A DNA stretch of 64,000 bases from Astropecten irregularis. Lineage: Eukaryota > Echinodermata > Asteroidea > Paxillosida > Astropectinidae. Position numbers and translations under genes: made by a program. Numbering within the stretch: the stretch's first letter is position 1; every line of letters begins with the position of its first letter. The stretch lies in assembly GCA_963971285.1 (NCBI GenBank), contig OZ020257.1, positions 14,026,602 to 14,090,601 of the forward strand. Reading direction: 5' to 3'. Under the pieces are notes generated by a model. The model saw only the letters and a program-made list of their open reading frames with translations, made no database searches and was not told the DNA's origin. This document shows positions 12,991-57,835 of this stretch, one piece after another.

Positions 12991-13364
12991 CCCCTGGAGA
13001 ATTCAGGTTTGGATGTTTATGTACAGTAACAGAATTCGGTGTACCAGATATTGTTCAATTTTAAACTCGCAAAAGTCTTATAAGGCAACAGAATCATTTC
13101 TGAAATGTATGACCCTGTTGCATTGTGTAAATTCCACCTTATGTCAGCATTATTCTGCTGCCATGTTGATTTGAATAAATATGAAATGAAATACATTGCC
13201 AATTCAGTTTTTATCTTCTTGCAGTTGCGTTTGGTCAGAGTTATTTTACTCAGACAGCTTTTGGGGACTAGGTTTTACCTCAAAGCAAAGATAACATTAA
13301 CAGAATTCTGCACTAGACTTTGCAAAAAAAGTTACATGGAAATAGACTTGCGTGGTGTATGCCC

Positions 13365-14521
13365 CCGGTAGTTCCCCTAGTAGTTCCCCAGTATGAAGTA
13401 GTGCCCCCCGGTAGTTCCCCTAGTAGTTCCCCCAGTATGGAGTAGTGCCCCTAGTAGTTCCCCCAGTATGGAGTAGTTCCCCCAGTAATTCCCCCAGTAT
13501 GAAGTAGTGCCCCCTGGTAGTTCCCCCAGTAGTTCCCCAGTATGAAGTAGTGCCCCCCGGTAGTTCCCCTAGTAGTTCCCCCAGTATGGAGTAGTGCCCC
13601 CTAGTAGTTCCCCCAGTATGGAGTAGTTCCCCCAGTAGTTCCCCAGTATGAAGTAGTGCCCCCCCGGTAGTGCCCCCAGTATGAAGTAGCTAGTGCCCCC
13701 CGGTAGTTCCCCTAGTAGTTCCCCAGTATGAAGTAGTGCCCCCCCGGTAGTTCCCCGAGTAGTTCCCCCAGTATAAAGTAGTGCCCCCCCGGTAGTGCCC
13801 CCAGTATGAAGTAGCTAGTGCCTCCTGGTAGTTCCCCTAGTAGTTCCCTCAGTATGAAGTAGTGCCCCCGGTAGTTCCCCTAGTAGTTCCCCCAGTATGA
13901 AGTAGTGCCCCCCGGTAGTTCCCCCAGTATGAAGTAGTGCCCCCCGGTAGTTCCCCCAGTATGAAGTAGTGCCCCCGGTAGTTCCCCCAGTATGAAGTAG
14001 TGCCCCCGGTAGTTCCCCCAGTATGAAGTAGTGTCCCCCGGTAGTTCCCCTAGTAGTTCCCCCAGTATGAAGTAGTGCCCCCGGTAGTTCCCCTAGTAGT
14101 TCCCCCAGTATGGAGTAGTGCCCCTAGTAGTTCCCCCAGTATGGAGTAGTTCCCCCAGTAATTCCCCCAGTATGAAGTAGTGCCCCCTGGTAGTTCCCCC
14201 AGTAGTTCCCCAGTACGAAGTAGTGCCCCCCGGTAGTTCCCCTAGTAGTTCCCCCAGTATGAAGTAGTGGCCCCGGTAGTTCCCCCAGTATGAAGTAGTG
14301 CCCCCAGTAGTTCCCCCAGTATGAAGTAGTGCCCCCGGTAGTTCCCCCAGTATGAAGTAGAGCCCCCCGGTAGTTCGAACCCCCAGTATGAAGTAGTGCC
14401 CCCAGTAGTTCCCCCAGTAGTTCCCCCAGTAGTTCCCCCAGTATGAAGAAGTGCCCCCCGGTAGTTCCCCCAGTATGGAGTAGTGCCCCAAGTAGTGCCC
14501 CCAGTAGTTCCCCCAGTATGG
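13365..14521. repeat. 1.15-kb minisatellite, C-rich on + strand
   Basis: More than 25 imperfect units built from AGTAGTTCCCCC, AGTATGAAGTAGTGCCCCC and GGTAGTTCCCCT blocks, in units of about 31 to 43 bp. The - strand is a ladder of G4-G6 tracts spaced by 7-15 bases. Long open frames across it (Trp/Tyr/Gly/Leu repeats) follow from the repeat and have no start context or splice sites, so they are not called genes. It lies between the convergent 3' ends of SLC30A5 and the 15.5-kb gene. Confidence 0.95.
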
Positions 14522-45437: not shown

Positions 45438-46473
45438 GGTGTTATCTCGGGGACTATCTTGGGATGTTTCGTAAAACGTCGACTGTTGGGATCTCGAAGT
45501 GATCGACTTTGTAAACTTGAGTCTCATCAAATTGTCCATAACCTAGTTTGATCTGACCTATCAGTCGATCTAGAACGAAGTTCCGGCTCAGTGGATCCAA
45601 GTTGTGATCGCAATCGGCCGCCATAGATTGTGGTCGACACCTGACTGGAATTTGATCGACACATATGGGACGGTAAAAAAAAGTCTAGATATATAGTTTG
45701 ATAACTTGAACTCTAGGCTGGATTGCGACCGACACCTACTGTACTGGACTGTGATATGGCAAGTCTGGATTGTGATCGACACTGACAGGCTGTCGCGGTC
45801 GTGCGTGAGGATACGCATCAGTGGGACATGTCACCAACAAGAATAAATCATTCTGATTGGATGAACCGGCCTATGAAGTTGCCCGCCTTCCACGAACTTA
45901 CGCCTGATTATCTGTATAATTCCGAAATTCGTCATATAAATCATAATAAAAATCTGCAAAAAGGAAAATGCTCACTGTCATGCAATCTAAGCTAACTGTT
46001 CCTATTTCAAATGTGTTATTAAGACTCAAAACATGCGGATATTTGAGCATTTTGAGTCCAAACCCTTCATCAAATAACCACAAGGTAATATTACTTTCAG
46101 ATTTTATCAAATCTAATGCACTTATTTTCTTGTACAAAGCCAGTGAAATCGAGCTAAGAATGAATTATTATTATTTCAGGATAAAATAGCGGCTTGGAAT
46201 CATGCTTTCTTTAGTTCTGGGTCTTGTAAAAAAACAATAGGATAAATTTAGAACATTTATTAGAAACTTACGTTGAAATTATTACAATATGTACCCCAAA
46301 AAAATTATATCTTTCCGAGTGAAGCCGAATCGCGAACGTTGTACCATTCGAAGTTGGGCAACAAAATAGACTGGTGCCTTCAAAATTAATGTTCACTCAT
46401 TCATCATGCATGCTGTGAAGATGGAAGCAGACGTCATGTTTTATGCACATTACATGAGCACATACATTATGTT

Positions 46474-48408
46474 ATGATGGCGTCCGTAGATCAAATCGTC
46501 AAAGCTGGCGGTTTACTTGTCTTTCGACGTTTTAAGAAGGAAATACAGTACTTGTTGCTCCAGAAAACCAAAAATAATACCAGCTGGACTCCACCTAAAG
46601 GTACTGTATGTGCGATGAACAAGGAGTGAACGGATTTCAAACGTAAACATGATGTAGCCTAGGCCCATTTATGATTTAGCACTCGTAGGCAAACGAACCC
46701 GTTACGGAATGAGACTAGCTAGCCTAACGTTAGACCAACATCAATAACAATATCACATTTTTTCGTCGTTAATTTGTTGTTCAATTTACGGTCAGCATTG
46801 AATTATTCACTCTTTCAGGACCCTGCAATAATTTTCTTGTTGTTATTTTTATAGGCCCCCTATTTGTCTTAATCTGTTCAGTACGTGTAATCTTCATTGT
46901 TCGCTAGCGCTGTGTGCACATAAATTAAATTGACTAGGGCTTGGCCTTCCCGGTTTCAAAAGCATGCAAACTGACCCATGCTACTCGGGCTATAGTAGTT
47001 GCAATGATCATTAACCCTAGGTCTGACATGGGGACTGGGACCTAACCCTAGGTCTGACATTGGGTTACGATCATCACAACTACTCAGTCTACTTTAATGA
47101 GAGACTTTTGAGAACCGGTTTTCAAGTCAACAGCGCACGCAATTGTGAAGCATTGTTTTGTGCCTGCGCTGTTGTGCGTGCGCTGTTGACTTGAAGACCG
47201 GTTCTCAAAAGTCTCCCATTGAGATGTTTATGACGGAAGACAAAGCAAGTATTATTATAGTTGCGATGATCGTAACCCTAGGTCTGACATGGGGACTGGG
47301 ACCTATGGGGAGTGGGACCTAAGGTCCCAGTCCCCATGTCAGACTTAGGGTTACGATCATCGCAACTAGTATTATTACATGAATTATGGGATGTCCATGA
47401 CAAGTCTGATGACAATGTTCTCCAATGACATGTGAAAACTGATACTAGTACTAGCCCAATGATACCCAACACAACGTCTGTCGTAAATTGGGTCCAGTCC
47501 CAGTCGCTTCATTTTATCTGTCTCAAGCTTTAGATTAGATATAATTGATTTAGATTGAATTTGATAGCCATCTCTCATCATCTGGAGTCGATTTCACAAA
47601 GCCCTAAGATCGATCGTAACTCGACTTACAAAGGATAACCCATCGTATCTCACGACTTCTACGCCGGACTTGCAATGCTCCAAAATACCTACGATTGATA
47701 GTAAGTTACAATGAGTTTAGTGAAATCGACCCCCGGACGTATTGGCTGAAATAAAGTCCATGGCTTGAGAAAGCCCATCCTTTGATTCCCTGATGCATGA
47801 TAGCTTTGAAGAAACTCCCAAAACTGATAAAGGGTTATTACGGTCATCACAAGTACTATATCAATAACAGTGATGAATGGCAACTTTCTTAGCTCTTTGA
47901 CTCCACTGGGCATGCGCACCGGTCACTGCACTTTTTTCCCTTAAATTTACAGCTGTTTCATGAATCATGTTTATTTTTAATCTAAATAAGTAGGCCTTGT
48001 GGGGGTATAAATATGAACATGAAACAGTTGTAGGACAAAGTCTAAAAAATAAATGTCAAAAGAATGTAGACAAGATTTTTTTTTGTATCCTTCGCAGGTC
48101 ACGTTGATCCCGGTGAAAGTATCTACGAAGCCGCCCTCCGAGAAACAACCGAAGAGGCGGGGCTCCTACCAGAACATCTGAATATTCATGAGGACATATC
48201 CTGGACAATAAAATACCAGACCAAGAAAGATAAGACTAAGGAGGTTGTCTATTGGCTGGCCCAGATGAAGGACAGCAGCACGCCGATAGTCTTATCCAAT
48301 GAACATCAAGGTTACAAGTGGTTAGGAGTCTCTAAAGCTAGTTCAATTGCTAAGTACCGGGACACCAAGATGATGTTTCGGGAAGCCGAAGACCTCCTGA
48401 ATCAATGA
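46474..48408 (+). CDS. NUDT2: Bis(5'-nucleosyl)-tetraphosphatase (Ap4A hydrolase), NUDT2
   Basis: Nudix enzyme that asymmetrically cleaves Ap4A to ATP and AMP. Two coding exons, 46474-46600 and 48098-48408 (stop TGA), joined at AAAG|GTACTG and TTCGCAG|GTCACG, giving 145 residues (human 147). The splice falls inside the WTPPKGHVDPGE block, immediately before the Nudix box, which is intact: G-HVDPG-E-SIYEAAL-RETTEEAGL fits Gx5Ex7REUxEExGU. Further family signatures are GGLLVFRR, VYWLAQ, and LSNEHQGYKWLG. Two adjacent ATG codons (46474, 46477) open the frame; the first is used here. Divergently arranged with KIF24. Confidence 0.96.
46996..47082. mobile_element. MITE family K, copy 1
   Basis: TAGTTGCAATGATCATTAAC to GTTACGATCATCACAACTA, with inner CTAGGTCTGACATGGGGACT. 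It lies in the NUDT2 intron. Confidence 0.7.
47095..47220. mobile_element. MITE family J hairpin
   Basis: TTTGAGAACCGGTTTTCAAG / CTTGAAGACCGGTTCTCAAA arms with CAACAGCGCACGC / GCGTGCGCTGTTG inside; the two halves are almost fully complementary. It sits between the two family K copies. Confidence 0.8.
47249..47377. mobile_element. MITE family K, copy 2, with 9-bp target duplication
   Basis: Element 47258-47368 is flanked by GTATTATTA on both sides (47249-47257, 47369-47377). Arms TAGTTGCGATGATCGTAACC and GGTTACGATCATCGCAACTA are perfectly inverted, and pairing continues through CTGACATGGGGACTGGGACC. A 9-bp duplication suggests a Mutator-like transposase. Confidence 0.8.
47584..47734. mobile_element. 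MITE family I
   Basis: GGAGTCGATTTCACAAAGCC to TAGTGAAATCGACCCCC, core ACAAAGGATAACCCATCGTA. It lies in the NUDT2 intron. Confidence 0.65.
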
Positions 48409-49960
48409 CATCGATTGGACTCTGCATAGTTTTATTTCTTGCAAATTGCAAAGTTCTACCTTGTTTAACACAAAAAAAATCATCCCTTTTAAATAGTGTG
48501 TGATTTTGTTCTTCTCCTTTTATCAATTTTTCTAACATTTTGTTTTCCCCATTTTGAAAATGACTAAAATAATCTGTAAGAATCATTGCAGTATGTTTCC
48601 AGAATCCAAATGAATAATTGTAGCAAACAAACATCAATATGAACGCATGCAATGACATGTACCGTCCTACAAATATTTCTAAGGATGTCTGATTATATAT
48701 AGGTGCAATAATGTTATTTCAGAGTTGATTGTAAAAATGTATCTTGTAAATCAACCTTATTTTGTTTTGTTTCTCAAAATTCTTGTCGAAAAATTATGTA
48801 CAATTTTTCCAAATTTTAGAAAAAAAGTCTGTACGGAACCGTAAATATTTTATTGAAATTAGAGTGCTTATGTAAACTTTATTTCATGCAATTGAAATGA
48901 TTGACAACTCTAGGCTGATAACACACAAGTACATGTACAAGATGCCTCTCTGTAAGTGTTATTGATTGGTACCAGATAAGAGTGCAAAAGCATTGGAACC
49001 AAAGTAGGTTAATTTCCCAGCACTCTGCACAATTCAATACAGTTCCCATCAGGAAATGATAATTTGCTTTCATAAAGACCTCATATACATGTACACACAC
49101 ACACTGATATTTCGGTTATTTTTTTTTCCAAGACCATTCATGAAGTTAATTTGTGAAATTTCCTCTCAACTTTGTTTTACAACAACGATAATGGAAATTA
49201 AATTTTCAACATTTTGCTCTTTACTTTATCTGTGCAATTCAAATTTACTAACAAAATACCCAGAAAATATTGAAATCTATTTCATATCCTAAAATTGGAA
49301 GAAAAAAAAGCACAAACCGCCCACTATACATACCTTTCACTACTTTTCAGGTACTTAGGCATATTTCATTGTTTGTAGAAAGACTGTTTAAAAAAAATAC
49401 TTTAGAGTTACTTGTTAAAATCTTGTTGAGAAACTACTGGTCATTTGAACTTAATTATTGTGGAACTGAAATAGGATAAAATACCATAGGACATGTACGG
49501 GTCATTGTTAGTGAATGCTTAACCAGACTTCAACAAATACTGTATGTTGTCAACTTGTCATAGAGATAAGAGTGTATTTAATTCCCCTATTTAAGATGGA
49601 AATATTTAGGATGTAGGTCTATTTGAAATTGGTGCTTTTTTTAAATGTGAAACACATCACACTGCAATAAGTGAAACAAATTTTTTGCAGAATTTAAAAA
49701 TTTGCAGAAGGATTTTTTGCAGTATTGATATAGAAATGGGAAGATTTAGGGGCTGAAACATTGCTTAGAACTTGTATAAAATGTTCAATTGCATCATTGG
49801 TATGTCAGGATTGTGGAACTATTACTCGCCAAAAACAATGCATTGTAGAAAATTAGTAAATTGAACGTAGACAAAAAAATAGTTAGATGAACTCCAATCT
49901 CCTGGGTGTTTTGGATTGGCCTGGCAAGTGCTGTTTAGTTGGCCTTCACCTTATGAACAG
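48409..49960. other. NUDT2 3' flank, no gene seen
   Basis: AT-rich sequence without conserved coding frames or recognisable repeats. No AATAAA is found close to the stop; the first one noted is at 51097-51102. Confidence 0.4.
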
Positions 49961-53013: not shown

Positions 53014-56000
53014 TCATGTTGTGTGTCTCTCCGATGTCCTGTCATTAACTGCAGCTGCTAAACTCTGTGGAGGACAAAAAAGAATGAATCAACATTAACC
53101 AAAGCAATTCCAACAAATGTTGGGCATGGTCGTGAGAAACAAGGTAGAGTCATTTGTAACGGTCAAATGATCAGGAAGGCATGGAATATACCAATATTCA
53201 TCAAATTCGGTCTCCTAATGTTACTGGGGTCGATTTCACCAAAACTCACCGTACCTTACTATCAATCATAGGACTAATATGATGGGTTATCATTCGTAAT
53301 TCGAGTGAAATTGACTCCTGGACTCATCAAACTCAGTTCAAAAATGGGAAAAGGGTGGCAGTTTATAAACATTCAACTCTGACACAACGACAAAATATTC
53401 ACCCAAAGTATGAGGAATCATAACTTTATATAGAATTCAGGCATGCAACTTGGACTTTACCAAAAATGAAGAAATTCTAATCTTTACCTTACATTGTACA
53501 GTGTTCTTCATTTTTCAATGGCATAATAGTGAAGTGAAAAAAAAAAAAGTCAGCTGATCCAAGGAAAAGTTGCATGTCTGGAAATCTTTCCAAGTGTCAA
53601 TTTTTTTGGTAACCAGAGCCTCTTTTCAACTTATTCCATGCTTCCTTGTAGAAGTCTGAAGACTAACTTGCAAAATACGGGCCATTCCAAACAGTGCGCC
53701 TCCAAGAGTTTGCAGTGTGTTGCCCAATCACCACGGAATTTGTCAACCCTTTCCAAATGTGCACTGGATTGACAAATTATGTGCATTGTGATTGGCCAAC
53801 GTGTTGCAAACTCTCGGAGACGCACTATTTGGAATCGCCGTATTGTGGATCCCCTTTTCAGAATGTGGCACATCTGACTTAATTATCAAGGTGACAGATA
53901 GAGCTAATATTTCAAGATGTCTTGGATCTTACCCTAAGTTCTGCTAATTGATCGATACTGTCTGGAGGAAGTTGAATGTCAGAGCTCGACTCCTCAAGAC
54001 GGGATGACAACCTGTGATTAAAAAAAAAATACAACAATACAATGCATTGTCTCACTTCCTAACTCTTTACATTACGGAATGCAGAATTACAGAACTTCTT
54101 TAAAATGAAAATTTGCCATCTACACAGCAAGAAACAAATTGTCACATCCAAAGGAGTCAAACGTAAAGGAGTCACACTTTATAAAGGAGTCACACTTTAC
54201 AAATGAGTCACACTTTATAAAGGAGTCACACTTTAAAATACATGTAAAGGAGTCACACTTAATAAAGGAGTCACACTTTAAAATACATGTAAAGGAGTCA
54301 CACTTAATAAAAGAGTCACACTTTAAAATACATGTAAAGGAGTCACACTTAATAAAGGAGTCACACTTTAAAATACATGTAAAGGAGTCACACTTAATAA
54401 AGGAGTCACACTTAAAGGAGTCACACAGGGGTATTGAGATTTATGTTACCTTTTGATCGACTGCTCAAGGCTGCCTATTTCCTCTCGTGTAGACTTCAGT
54501 TCCTACACAAACAGGTCCAAGAGTGTGGTTTATTCCAAACTATTCATACAAATTCTTGCTATTCATTCAGATACCTTCTCCTTTCATCAAAATATCTTGC
54601 TATTCATTTAGATATCTTCATTACTCTTACAGATATCTGCTATTCATTTGCAATCCAAATGTCTTTGATATCTTCAATATGAATGCAGATATCTTTGTTT
54701 TTCAGTCAGATATCTTTCCTATTGACATAATGACAGACATGTATTACTGGTTGCAGCTTTTAGGGCAGAAGGAGAAATGGGACTGATGTTGAGATAGGAT
54801 ATTAAAGTGGAAGGGTTGGGTTGGGATTTGATGGCCAATAAAGGCCTTTTCCCACTAGATCGCTCATCCCCGGGGCGAACTAACCCCGGCGCCACTCCGG
54901 GGTGAAAATTTTAACCCTGGTCCTGAGCAGGGTTGAACTATTAACCCCGGAGAAAAGGCAATATCGGGGATGGCTCAGGGGTGACGGAGGGGTGAACATT
55001 TCATGTGGGGATCGTGGCTTATTTTCACCCCCGGGGCCACCCCCGAGATTGGTCAAGTGGGAAAAGGCCTTAACTAATCTTCCTCACAAAGAAACAGGAA
55101 TGGAGACAAGGTACAAGGCTTTCCCTCCATCAGGAAGTCCGGCCTTTATAAGCTAACCTCTTCAGCTTCAGTCTGTTTGCTCTCCAAGAGGTTCACGGCT
55201 TGTTCCAGGGACTGATGCTTCAACGTGCTGCTGTTCTGCACTATGCTGCCCTAGTGTGGATAGATAGAAATCAGTTTCGAATCATTTGACAGAGTAGACC
55301 ACGGCCGACTGGCTTGGGGTGTACTGTACATGTATACTGACCAGTGGAAAGATGAGTTCACAGTTAAGGTTGGGAAGATCAGCACTCCAACTGACATACG
55401 CCAGCAAAAATGATCTTACTTCTTTCTGAGAGGATACTTGATGCTAACTAACCTGAAGGCCTCTCTTGTATCTTCTGTGTATGTCTTTGGCAACCTTTTC
55501 ACGTAACACCCTACGCTGCCTCTGGAATGCTCTATACAGAAGACGTGTATCTGGATGGTCCCTGGATTGAGAAGGTGCACAAATTGGAATATTAATAGTG
55601 TCATAGATAACTATCACACAGTGCAATGTAGCAAAGACCATCTGGGTATTCTTACAAGTTTTTACTGATTATTACTAATACTGGTATTTGGAATTATAAA
55701 GAGAAGGGAAGTATTCAACTGATGGGCAACACAAGTAATAAGTATGACACACCCTGTGCACAAACCTTATTGGAGACTGAACCGGTGCCCAACAGAGGGC
55801 ATTTTGAGATTAAAAAAAAGGCTGCCGTTGCAGCTTCGAAGTGTATCATTGTATGTCAAAAACATTCCGTAAAACTCACTTTTCAGATATGCTTCCCCAG
55901 TTATTCTGTTGGTTGTGCCTTATTGTGTAAACACATGTGTACACTCCAGTATTTATGCTATGTGTGCTTGTTCTTACTACAAGCATTGTTCAGTGACCAA

Positions 56001-56396
56001 AAAGGCCAATATGTTTGACCAAGTCCAAGAGAATACATAGCTGAGATTGAAGTTCGTCCTATAATTAACTTCCATAACATAAGTTTTACTTTCTTCTTGA
56101 GTTAATACACAGTGAGTGAGTGACAGTACAGTAGGCCTACTGTCTGATTTAGGCCATGTACTGTAGGCCTAACTTGTAAGTTGTAAAGAATTTCTGTTGC
56201 CAAATTCGCGACAATATTTCATTCTAAACCATCAAAGCATGCACTGTACGAATACAAGCATTTTCACTGACCTGTATTTAGGAGGAAACATTTCTTGAAA
56301 CTGTGGAAACGAGTCAAACGGACCCAAAATGACCGCTGGATCCAGAAGCAGTTCCGCAAGCAAATTACTGCGCGTTAGTGGTAGCCTTGTTGCCAT
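53014..56396 (-). CDS. Unrecognised small coiled-coil protein, six exons
   Basis: Family not recognised. Exons 56396-56272, 55561-55453, 55250-55158, 54502-54450, 54011-53933 and 53064-53014 (stop TGA) join in phase through GT-AG introns to give 169 residues. The N-terminal part has a hydrophobic/Pro segment (LLLDPAVILGPFDSFPQF, FPPKYR); the second exon is strongly basic and helical (TRLLYRAFQRQRRVLREK, HRRYKR) and faintly LYR-like; exons 3-5 are Glu/Gln/Leu-rich with coiled-coil character (LEQAVNLLESKQTEAEE, REEIGSLEQSIKR). No signal peptide or membrane segment. The first ten residues (MATRLPLTRS) are encoded by a transposon terminal repeat (see 56359-56836). Six in-phase exons argue for a real gene, probably with orthologues in relatives; the last exon is the least certain. 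Confidence 0.75.
53226..53320. mobile_element. MITE family I, short copy
   Basis: GGGGTCGATTTCACCAAAAC to TCGAGTGAAATTGACTCC, core ATGGGTTATCATTCGTAA. It lies in the last intron of the coiled-coil gene. Confidence 0.55.
53676..53843. mobile_element. MITE family L
   Basis: CGGGCCATTCCAAACAGTGC to GCACTATTTGGAATCGCCG, with CTCCAAGAGTTTGCA facing TGCAAACTCTCGGAG and a central palindrome about CCAATCACC / GTGATTGG. Confidence 0.75.
54155..54428. repeat. 45-bp minisatellite in an intron
   Basis: Units of AAAGGAGTCACACTTAATAA plus AGGAGTCACACTTTAAAATA and CATGT repeat about four times, with simpler AAAGGAGTCACACTT units at both ends. It lies 22 bp from exon 54502-54450 of the coiled-coil gene. 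Its Lys-Glu-Ser-His reading frame is a by-product of the 45-bp period. Confidence 0.9.
54841..55071. mobile_element. MITE family F
   Basis: AAGGCCTTTTCCCACTAGAT to AAGTGGGAAAAGGCCTT, with internal CCCCGGGG-type blocks (TTCACCCCCGGGGCC, AACCCCGG). It lies in an intron of the coiled-coil gene. Confidence 0.7.
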
Positions 56397-56836
56397 CTTG
56401 TGATTGGTCCGTGTGCAGCGATGCGTAGTCGTGCAGTCAATGTACATACACATAGGCAGTGGTTAGTGCGTAGTCGTTGCCGTACAGCCTCGATTCATGT
56501 ACAAGTACAGTGCATCCGCATTGTACGGGGTACGTGTGGCTGACGTGAGACTTGAAATTTTAATCTGAATTCCGAATTTTTTTTCAGATTTTATACTCAG
56601 AATTTCAGCTTTGCTCTGCACGGAAGTATAAGAAAAAGGTCTTTTAAATTTGAGCTTATTTCTCGGTGTTTTCAACTTCAGATTTTGTTTTGTTTGGCCA
56701 CTCACATCCCCGACGTACGTGCGTGCGGTACTTGTATATAGCACACGAGTCGCGCAGTGCATGCAGTGTGTAGCACACACGGATGGACCAATCACAAGAT
56801 GGCAACAAGGCTACCACTAACGCGCAGTAGCAAATT
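56359..56836. mobile_element. Transposon-like element whose inverted repeat supplies a start codon
   Basis: Element 56367-56828 (462 bp) is flanked by the direct repeat AGCAAATT at 56359-56366 and 56829-56836. The terminal inverted repeats are identical over 44 bp (ACTGCGCGTTAGTGGTAGCC inward, up to GGACC). In gene orientation each repeat carries GGACCAATCACAAGATGGCA, that is a CCAAT box and an ATG. The left copy's ATG is the start of the coiled-coil gene. The interior has no transposase. 8-bp duplications are made by hAT, P and Merlin-type elements; the superfamily is not decided here. Confidence 0.88.
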
Positions 56837-57835
56837 GACAGCCGCCATTTTTCGTATTATTTACTGGCTGTTTTGTGCCCATTGGTGGCGCTGTTTCAAT
56901 TTTCCTGCCGAAGAAGAAGATGACACTGCACTCAAAGTGATGGTGCATGCACCAAACTGATTAGCATAAAATAATTAATGAACACTCCTAAAATAATTAT
57001 TCTTTTAATTAGGGAGTTCATGCAGTTAAAATGTTGTGTAATTATGACAAGTTATCACAACCTGGGTGTCCTGTGCTTTAAATAATTTATTTGAAAAGAC
57101 TTGACTTTTCTCTGGGGGTAACTTGGCAATTAACTAAATTTCTCATCTGCAACCCTACCAAACATTCGAAATAATTTGACAGATTTAGATTCACACTCCA
57201 ATTCCCAGTATTGAGGCAAAACCTGAAAGGCTCCTGGATCCAGTTTCAATGTCAAGTTTAGTTTAAACATGGAGGAAGGAAAAGCTTTTCCTTCCCATGG
57301 TTTCGAGGTTTACACCACTGAGTCCAACGTTATGTATTGTGGCAAACCTCGCCGAATGAGGGCGCATGCTCAAGACACTGTTTTGTAAGACATTGTCACA
57401 TCTTTCCGTCGCATAAGAACAAAAAGTGTCATTTGATTCAATGGAACAACTACAAGTGGAGCAGATTTCAAAGGGATTATTTTGATTACTGACAAGTCTA
57501 ATAACTTCATAAGTAATTTGTCCCAACTCCTTTTCAGTGATAATCTCCCAGTTGTAAACGTAGGCCCTACGCCTAATTACCTCCGGGCGTATCTACCGAC
57601 ATTGGCCGGCGTTTTGTCCGTCAATGCCAGGCGTGCGCTACAAAATAATTATTGCCGATCCTGGTGTCAATGTCAAGATGTCATAAACTAAAAACCAATC
57701 AAGTTAGAGACTGCTTCTAGTTCTAAGGATGTTTGGTTCAGTGAAAAGACTGGTTGGAAGTTATAGTTTATAGGTCGGTGGGTAGTGAGCCTGGTATAGG
57801 TTGGTCGGTCGGTGGATCTGGTCGGTCCATGATTG

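Follow-up and report, generated by a model that had tools for sequence, protein, structure and literature searches.

In a starfish, a 462-bp transposable element has inserted 12 nt past the A of the ATG that opened a predicted Cnl2/NKP2-family gene, and one of its terminal inverted repeats (TIRs) places an ATG in frame with the remainder of that gene. Statistically, insertions across the element family often follow a rule of motif and distance, in which a YY1-type motif, GCCATNTT, lies a fixed number of bases beyond the target-site duplication, and insertion into the NKP2-family gene was probably not random. We consider it slightly better than even (about 55%) that a young MULE MITE, directed by the YY1 motif, displaced the start of the gene and supplies a replacement in-frame start from its TIR. 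The locus offers a testable case of how a mobile element might be tolerated where a gene is most easily damaged, presents a DNA transposon whose choice of target apparently follows a host transcription-factor motif, and illustrates a possible single-step route to a new N-terminus. It also joins two known facts: transposon ends may contain YY1 sites, and some YY1 sites serve as start codons as well. That link was not found in the literature searched, which covered few subscription papers and in which no YY1-targeted transposon and no transposon-supplied start codon on point came up.

Insertion at the start of a predicted NKP2-family gene

The window, that is the whole 64-kb stretch analysed (C21:14026602-14090601), derives from an assembly of 475.7 Mb. 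Its features, numbered from the first base of the window, are as follows.

56367..56828, strand not assigned: non-autonomous MULE (MITE), 462 bp, multicopy and TIR-bounded
56367..56410, - strand: TIR adjoining the coding exon, with an outward ATG at 56396-56394 and CCAATCACAAG before it
56785..56828, + strand: second TIR, identical to the first, its outward ATG pointing at the old promoter
56359..56366, + strand: target-site duplication copy 1, AGCAAATT
56829..56836, + strand: target-site duplication copy 2, AGCAAATT
56542..56710, strand not assigned, bounds approximate: core of the element, a second MITE of ~175 bp with ends CAGGGATGTGAG, also found alone
56841..56851, + strand: YY1/TISU-type motif GCCGCCATTTT (AAAATGGCGGC on the - strand) containing the old start codon
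56846..56848, - strand: old start codon (MAAV...), now opening an 18-codon frame whose TGA ends at 56792
56272..56396, - strand: predicted new first coding exon from the TIR ATG, MATRLPLTRS-NLLAELLLDPAVILGPFDSFPQFQEMFPPKY(R), with GT next; boundary set by eye
55453..55561, - strand: coding exon 2 of the NKP2-family gene, GT-AG, boundaries by eye
55158..55250, - strand: coding exon 3
54450..54502, - strand: coding exon 4
53933..54011, - strand: coding exon 5
53014..53064, - strand: coding exon 6, including the stop codon

Inspection of the element reveals perfect inverted ends of 44 bp (45 counting a shared T/A) that start ACTGCGCG and are flanked on both sides by AGCAAATT, in agreement to the base with a preliminary description of this DNA. 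Both ends carry the CCAAT and AAGATGG motifs which that description had listed. The element begins after codon 4 and splits the gene. On the - strand its inner end reads ATG (56396) GCA ACA AGG CTA CCA CTA ACG CGC AGT, followed by AAT TTG CTT GCG, which confirms the in-frame ATG proposed earlier. Joining the flanks with one AGCAAATT restores the old ATG to the same frame and gives MAAVNLLAELLLDPAV, again as proposed, and the 18-codon frame from 56848 likewise closes inside the element. GCCGCCATNTT occurs once in the 64-kb window on either strand, at the old start of the NKP2-family gene. The preliminary description had also put forward an older MAAV-NLLAE N-terminus, and this is borne out by Patiria miniata LOC119746319 (68%), which begins MAAVNLLAELLLDPAV and supplies the MAAVNLLAEL-type start that was sought there, together with the orthologue of Asterias amurensis (61%), which begins MAAVKKLAEMLLNPDV. 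Both of the two orthologues found thus begin MAAV with an empty site, confirming the old start; none beyond these two emerged from 8000 candidates scored by profile.

Read from the TIR ATG, the gene has six open coding exons with GT-AG borders (by eye) and a predicted protein of 169 residues. A hand-spliced protein with the old start, one residue short, matches PF09447 (Cnl2_NKP2) at 1.2e-10 and 41.7 bits against a gathering cut-off of 27; the match begins at residue 6, so that the four exchanged residues fall outside the matched stretch. Judged by its sequence, the gene belongs to the Cnl2/NKP2 (kinetochore) family and probably serves chromosome segregation. It is single-copy among the matches found, all six protein matches in the assembly (E up to 10) lying at its own locus, and the five PDB matches up to E = 1 include no Nkp2 chain. 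Nkp1 and Nkp2 are dispensable for viability in budding yeast (PMC6407923). In the available text of other sources, Nkp2 is given for two yeasts only (PMC7729030), is called absent in vertebrates (PMC9252888) and goes unnamed in the main text of a comparative-genomics paper (PMC5579357). The sea-star gene (53014-56396) stands as an observation of its own, for a kinetochore subunit that the available text lists for yeasts and calls absent in vertebrates (PMC7729030, PMC9252888). Elsewhere in the window, the + strand at 46450-48450, beyond the 3' side of the gene, appears by eye to encode a Nudix (NUDT2-like) protein, and a long tandem-repeat array of the GTAGTTCCCCC type occupies 13360-14520.

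The element family and its assignment

A 41-nt TIR pattern allowing up to three mismatches gives 43 matches in the assembly against none for the backward-read control, and is therefore not a chance pattern. A search with the element returned at least 95 matching pieces (best 40 of 699 candidates scored), the longer matches elsewhere in the assembly being 77-95% identical to it. A young group of eleven copies stands out, with each member 0.65-1.49% from the majority sequence; the window copy is nearest to the consensus, from which it differs at 3 of 462 bases (0.65%) and by two deletions, with 2 private changes, and is on this measure young. Where both ends are recognised (19 copies), the duplications are exact in 12 (8 or 9 bp), match at 7/8 in three and are poorer in four. 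The expectation raised earlier, that other copies of the end with 8-bp duplications exist in the genome, thus holds. The element is short, TIR-bounded, multicopy and free of a transposase frame, as a MITE should be; a 110-codon frame that overlaps it was not judged coding. One copy of 296 bp (L031) lacks the nested core and so probably predates the nesting, and ten loci (L038-L047) match the nested core alone and were left out of the copy count.

On C15, a MULE transposase (PF10551, 8e-9, above cut-off) lies between two TIRs separated by 19.1 kb, and the duplication of this long element matches at 7/8. The transposase frames are discontinuous, and by its place the gene probably belongs to these ends; gypsy-type frames in the same element are read as a nested retrotransposon. 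By eye the transposase contains a CxC..CxH pattern, without a Pfam SWIM match. SWIM zinc fingers are found in many MULE transposases. Given the shared ends, the PF10551 transposase and the 8-9 bp duplications, the element is best read as a MULE MITE, the superfamily having target duplications of 8-11 bp (PMC6446971). It resembles Muta1 of Aedes aegypti in its 8- or 9-bp duplications, TIRs and short non-autonomous derivatives. In contrast, little or no sequence preference is described for Muta1 in the text available, whereas the starfish MULE has a YY1-type motif at a fixed distance (PMC5225508). Within 6 kb, a C18 relative of the transposase (39%) has no matching long inverted ends and no GCCATYTTG. 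This locus (L066, C18:20341500-20347500) holds a 606-residue open frame, 39% to the MULE transposase and with no recognisable ends in the 6 kb, which is perhaps a domesticated transposase.

A YY1-type motif at a fixed distance from insertions

Translation of the flanks, read outward from the element ends, revealed a recurring GCC-ATY-TT. With flank bases numbered outward from the element, 10 of 44 ends have an exact GCCATNTT at base 16, where 0.011 is expected from bases 81-1500. Taking the best side of each copy, 10 of 28 carry it at base 16 and controls reach a maximum of 1 over 1,360 offsets; across flank offsets 1-40 there are 10 exact motifs at base 16, 1 at base 17 and none elsewhere. 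Two copies with 9-bp duplications, L016 and L027, carry the motif at base 17, which makes 7 bp from the duplication the constant. Measured in this manner, with adjustment for 9-bp duplications, 12 of 28 copies have the motif on one side, against a mean of 0.010 and a maximum of 1 over 1,260 control offsets. The 28 copies comprise 27 of 30 fetched loci and the 19-kb element, L029, L030 and L035 having been dropped for want of a recognisable end; two settings were made by hand, the motif side in L027 and, in L010, a shift of the end by one base. At the NKP2-family gene, the GCCAT of the old-start motif also begins 7 bp past the duplication. The preliminary description was supported in part: its insertion four codons in, with a MAAV start replaced by the TIR ATG, agrees with the orthologues, the other copies and the single-copy gene, and it had missed the old start as the probable target signal.

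The 16 copies lacking an exact motif score 7/8 (two), 6 (four), 5 (two), 4 (three), 3 (one) and 2 (four), so that 8 of 28 lie at or below 4/8, and some of these motif-less copies are old, shortened or one-ended. Among the 12 copies with 7-8/8 at base 16, 8 have C at base 14, 11 have C or G at base 15 and 7 have G at base 24; the bases beside the target motif lean to YY1. The motif lies left of the element in seven exact copies and right in five, as expected because the ends are identical. Three of the 12 exact targets (L011, L012, L027) fall in one host repeat, while L020 and L021, both exact, have flanking repeat sequence in common. L037 occupies the same host repeat as the first three, its motif side lost. 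All four of these insertions are at the same spot of that repeat, AAGATGGCnGCCATG followed by GTGTAAAC or a close variant, an apparent insertion hotspot with a YY1-type motif. That the flank motif might stem from insertion of the element into copies of itself was rejected by eye, since the flanks around GCCATNTT are unlike the TIR and, except for the two shared host repeats, unlike each other.

The target is known to be a true start codon at this NKP2-family gene only. Pfam scans of the 2 kb downstream in five of the other 11 exact-motif copies (L010, L013, L014, L032, L033) left four without a match, which for the copies scanned does not amount to there being no gene. The single match was THAP (8.2e-5, 23.7 bits against a cut-off of 23.9), with its ATG downstream of the element. 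L025, whose motif scores 6/8, is not at a start: the exon downstream of it encodes the C-terminal part of an emp24 protein. As a separate observation, a shortened copy of the MITE at L032:1740-2170 has a CAAGATGGCGGC (TISU-type) sequence on one side and a THAP-domain exon on the other.

Other transposons offer partial parallels. Dada, like the starfish MULE, is a DNA transposon with a sequence target at a fixed distance and a subterminal motif shared with that target; unlike it, Dada makes 6-7 bp duplications and targets snRNA/tRNA genes, where the starfish family is a MULE with 8-9 bp and a YY1/start-codon motif (PMC3706591). Its 6-7 bp duplications led to rejection of identity with Dada. The SaTar MULEs also have a sequence-specific target, which differs in being a microsatellite and is often hit without duplication (PMC5907723). 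Lancelet ProtoRAG shares GCCATCTTG in the TIR, where it is bound by YY1, and its TIR promoter activity is bidirectional. ProtoRAG differs in its 5-bp duplications and RAG transposase, and the available text holds nothing on YY1 at the insertion target (PMC7481187). Identity with ProtoRAG/Transib was rejected, as 5-bp duplications and a CACTATG heptamer end contrast with the 8-9 bp and ACTGCGCG found here.

Proposed initiation from the element end and alternative accounts

The element ends carry GCCATCTTG within CCAATCACAAGATGGC, so that insertion places a look-alike of the displaced start beside the rest of the gene. TISU, with core AAGATGGC, binds YY1 and holds a start codon near the transcription start, the element itself lying at +5 to +30 (PMC2518114). 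The TIR matches this core exactly, and the old start, AAAATGGC, is one base off. Both resemble TISU in having an ATG inside a YY1 site; TISU was described in human genes, with a short leader (PMC2518114), and the sites here are TISU candidates by sequence. In the proposed mechanism, the YY1-type motif GCCATNTT, which also held the TISU-like start codon, would have chosen the insertion site. YY1, or a transposase of the same specificity, would tether the element beside a YY1-type start, for which the element end could then substitute. Transcription and translation of the NKP2-family gene would most likely now begin at or just upstream of the TIR end. The CCAAT-to-ATG gap in the TIR is only 6 nt, an unusually short spacing for a CCAAT box, which counts against this mechanism. 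The context of the TIR ATG is strong, with A at -3 and G at +4.

Counted from the A of each ATG, the genomic start lies 12 nt from the duplication and the TIR start 30 nt from the element end, both multiples of 3, which sets the TIR ATG in frame as MATRLPLTRS-NLLAEL. That is to say, with these distances fixed, any insertion at a AANATGGC start would be in frame regardless of orientation or duplication length. The outward ATG is kept in 44 of 44 recognised ends (up to 8 mismatches). We tentatively raise the possibility, which we would not favor, that the family as a whole seeks YY1/TISU starts with both ends carrying a matching start, such that insertion either way replaces promoter and start in frame. 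Such an insertion would repair its own damage, and the family could then persist within the opening codons of essential genes. A frame match arises by chance at ~1/3, and multiplied by ~0.65 for the lack of a stop this becomes ~0.2 overall; with odds of this order we make no claim that the match evolved for a purpose, and there is no sign of selection.

The same ~0.2 would suit a reading in which the insertion simply breaks the gene and leaves a null allele, or a strongly reduced one, that is recent and may still be segregating, its in-frame ATG being a coincidence. The closeness of the element to its consensus (0.65%, two private changes), the single haplotype seen and the viability of budding yeast without Nkp1/Nkp2 (PMC6407923) are all consistent with such an allele. 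Set against it are the openness of all six coding exons, the strong context of the TIR ATG, the location of the exchanged residues ahead of the conserved stretch and the lack of a second gene copy in the matches found. A recent null would present the same picture, however, and because the insertion is young, an intact downstream frame proves little. We regard a null allele as possible but doubtful. It is unlikely that the old promoter is still used and the element serves as a 5' leader, with leaky scanning, reinitiation or splicing inside the element giving access to the TIR ATG or to the ATGs at 56453 and 56447. The old CCAAT and YY1 motif do remain upstream, and the element contains a weak splice donor at 56705 (home-made score 4.0) and a pyrimidine-rich AG ending at 56616. 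The stretch from 57000 to 56396, however, contains 11 upstream ATGs, of which 8 lie at or downstream of the old start codon, and these open frames of 18 codons (old start) and 99 codons; transcripts from the old promoter would thus meet 8 to 11 ATGs before that of the TIR, which makes a start inside the end likelier. Within the element, every upstream frame that is out of phase with the gene has closed by 56463; past that point just two upstream ATGs follow, 56453 and 56447, both in the gene frame. Exact splicing-out of the element was rejected, as GT-AG or GC-AG ends occur at none of the nine possible cuts of exactly 470 nt.

Initiation from the TIR is compatible with more than one reader of the target motif, which may be host YY1 or the transposase. 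That the MULE transposase, and not YY1, recognizes GCCATNTT in both TIR and target is a serious candidate at a little under even odds. It would account for one motif common to TIR and target, has a precedent in the Dada subterminal motif shared with targets at a fixed distance (PMC3706591), and is consistent with a weak FAR1 DNA-binding match (0.055, below cut-off). In contrast, the bases beside the motif fit YY1, and lancelet YY1 binds the same 9-mer, GCCATCTTG, in a deuterostome TIR, that of ProtoRAG, and contacts its transposase (PMC7481187). There, YY1 represses TIR transcription and suppresses transposition, which argues against a simple helper role; mutation of the motif also lowered TIR activity (PMC7481187). 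Passive enrichment, in which MULEs prefer open promoters rich in YY1 motifs, is very improbable. MULEs do tend to insert in or near genes (PMC6446971; Muta1, PMC5225508), but a single offset carries the signal and a fixed distance contradicts a general preference, the motif moves by one base in the two copies whose duplications are 9 bp long, and several targets lie within repeats.
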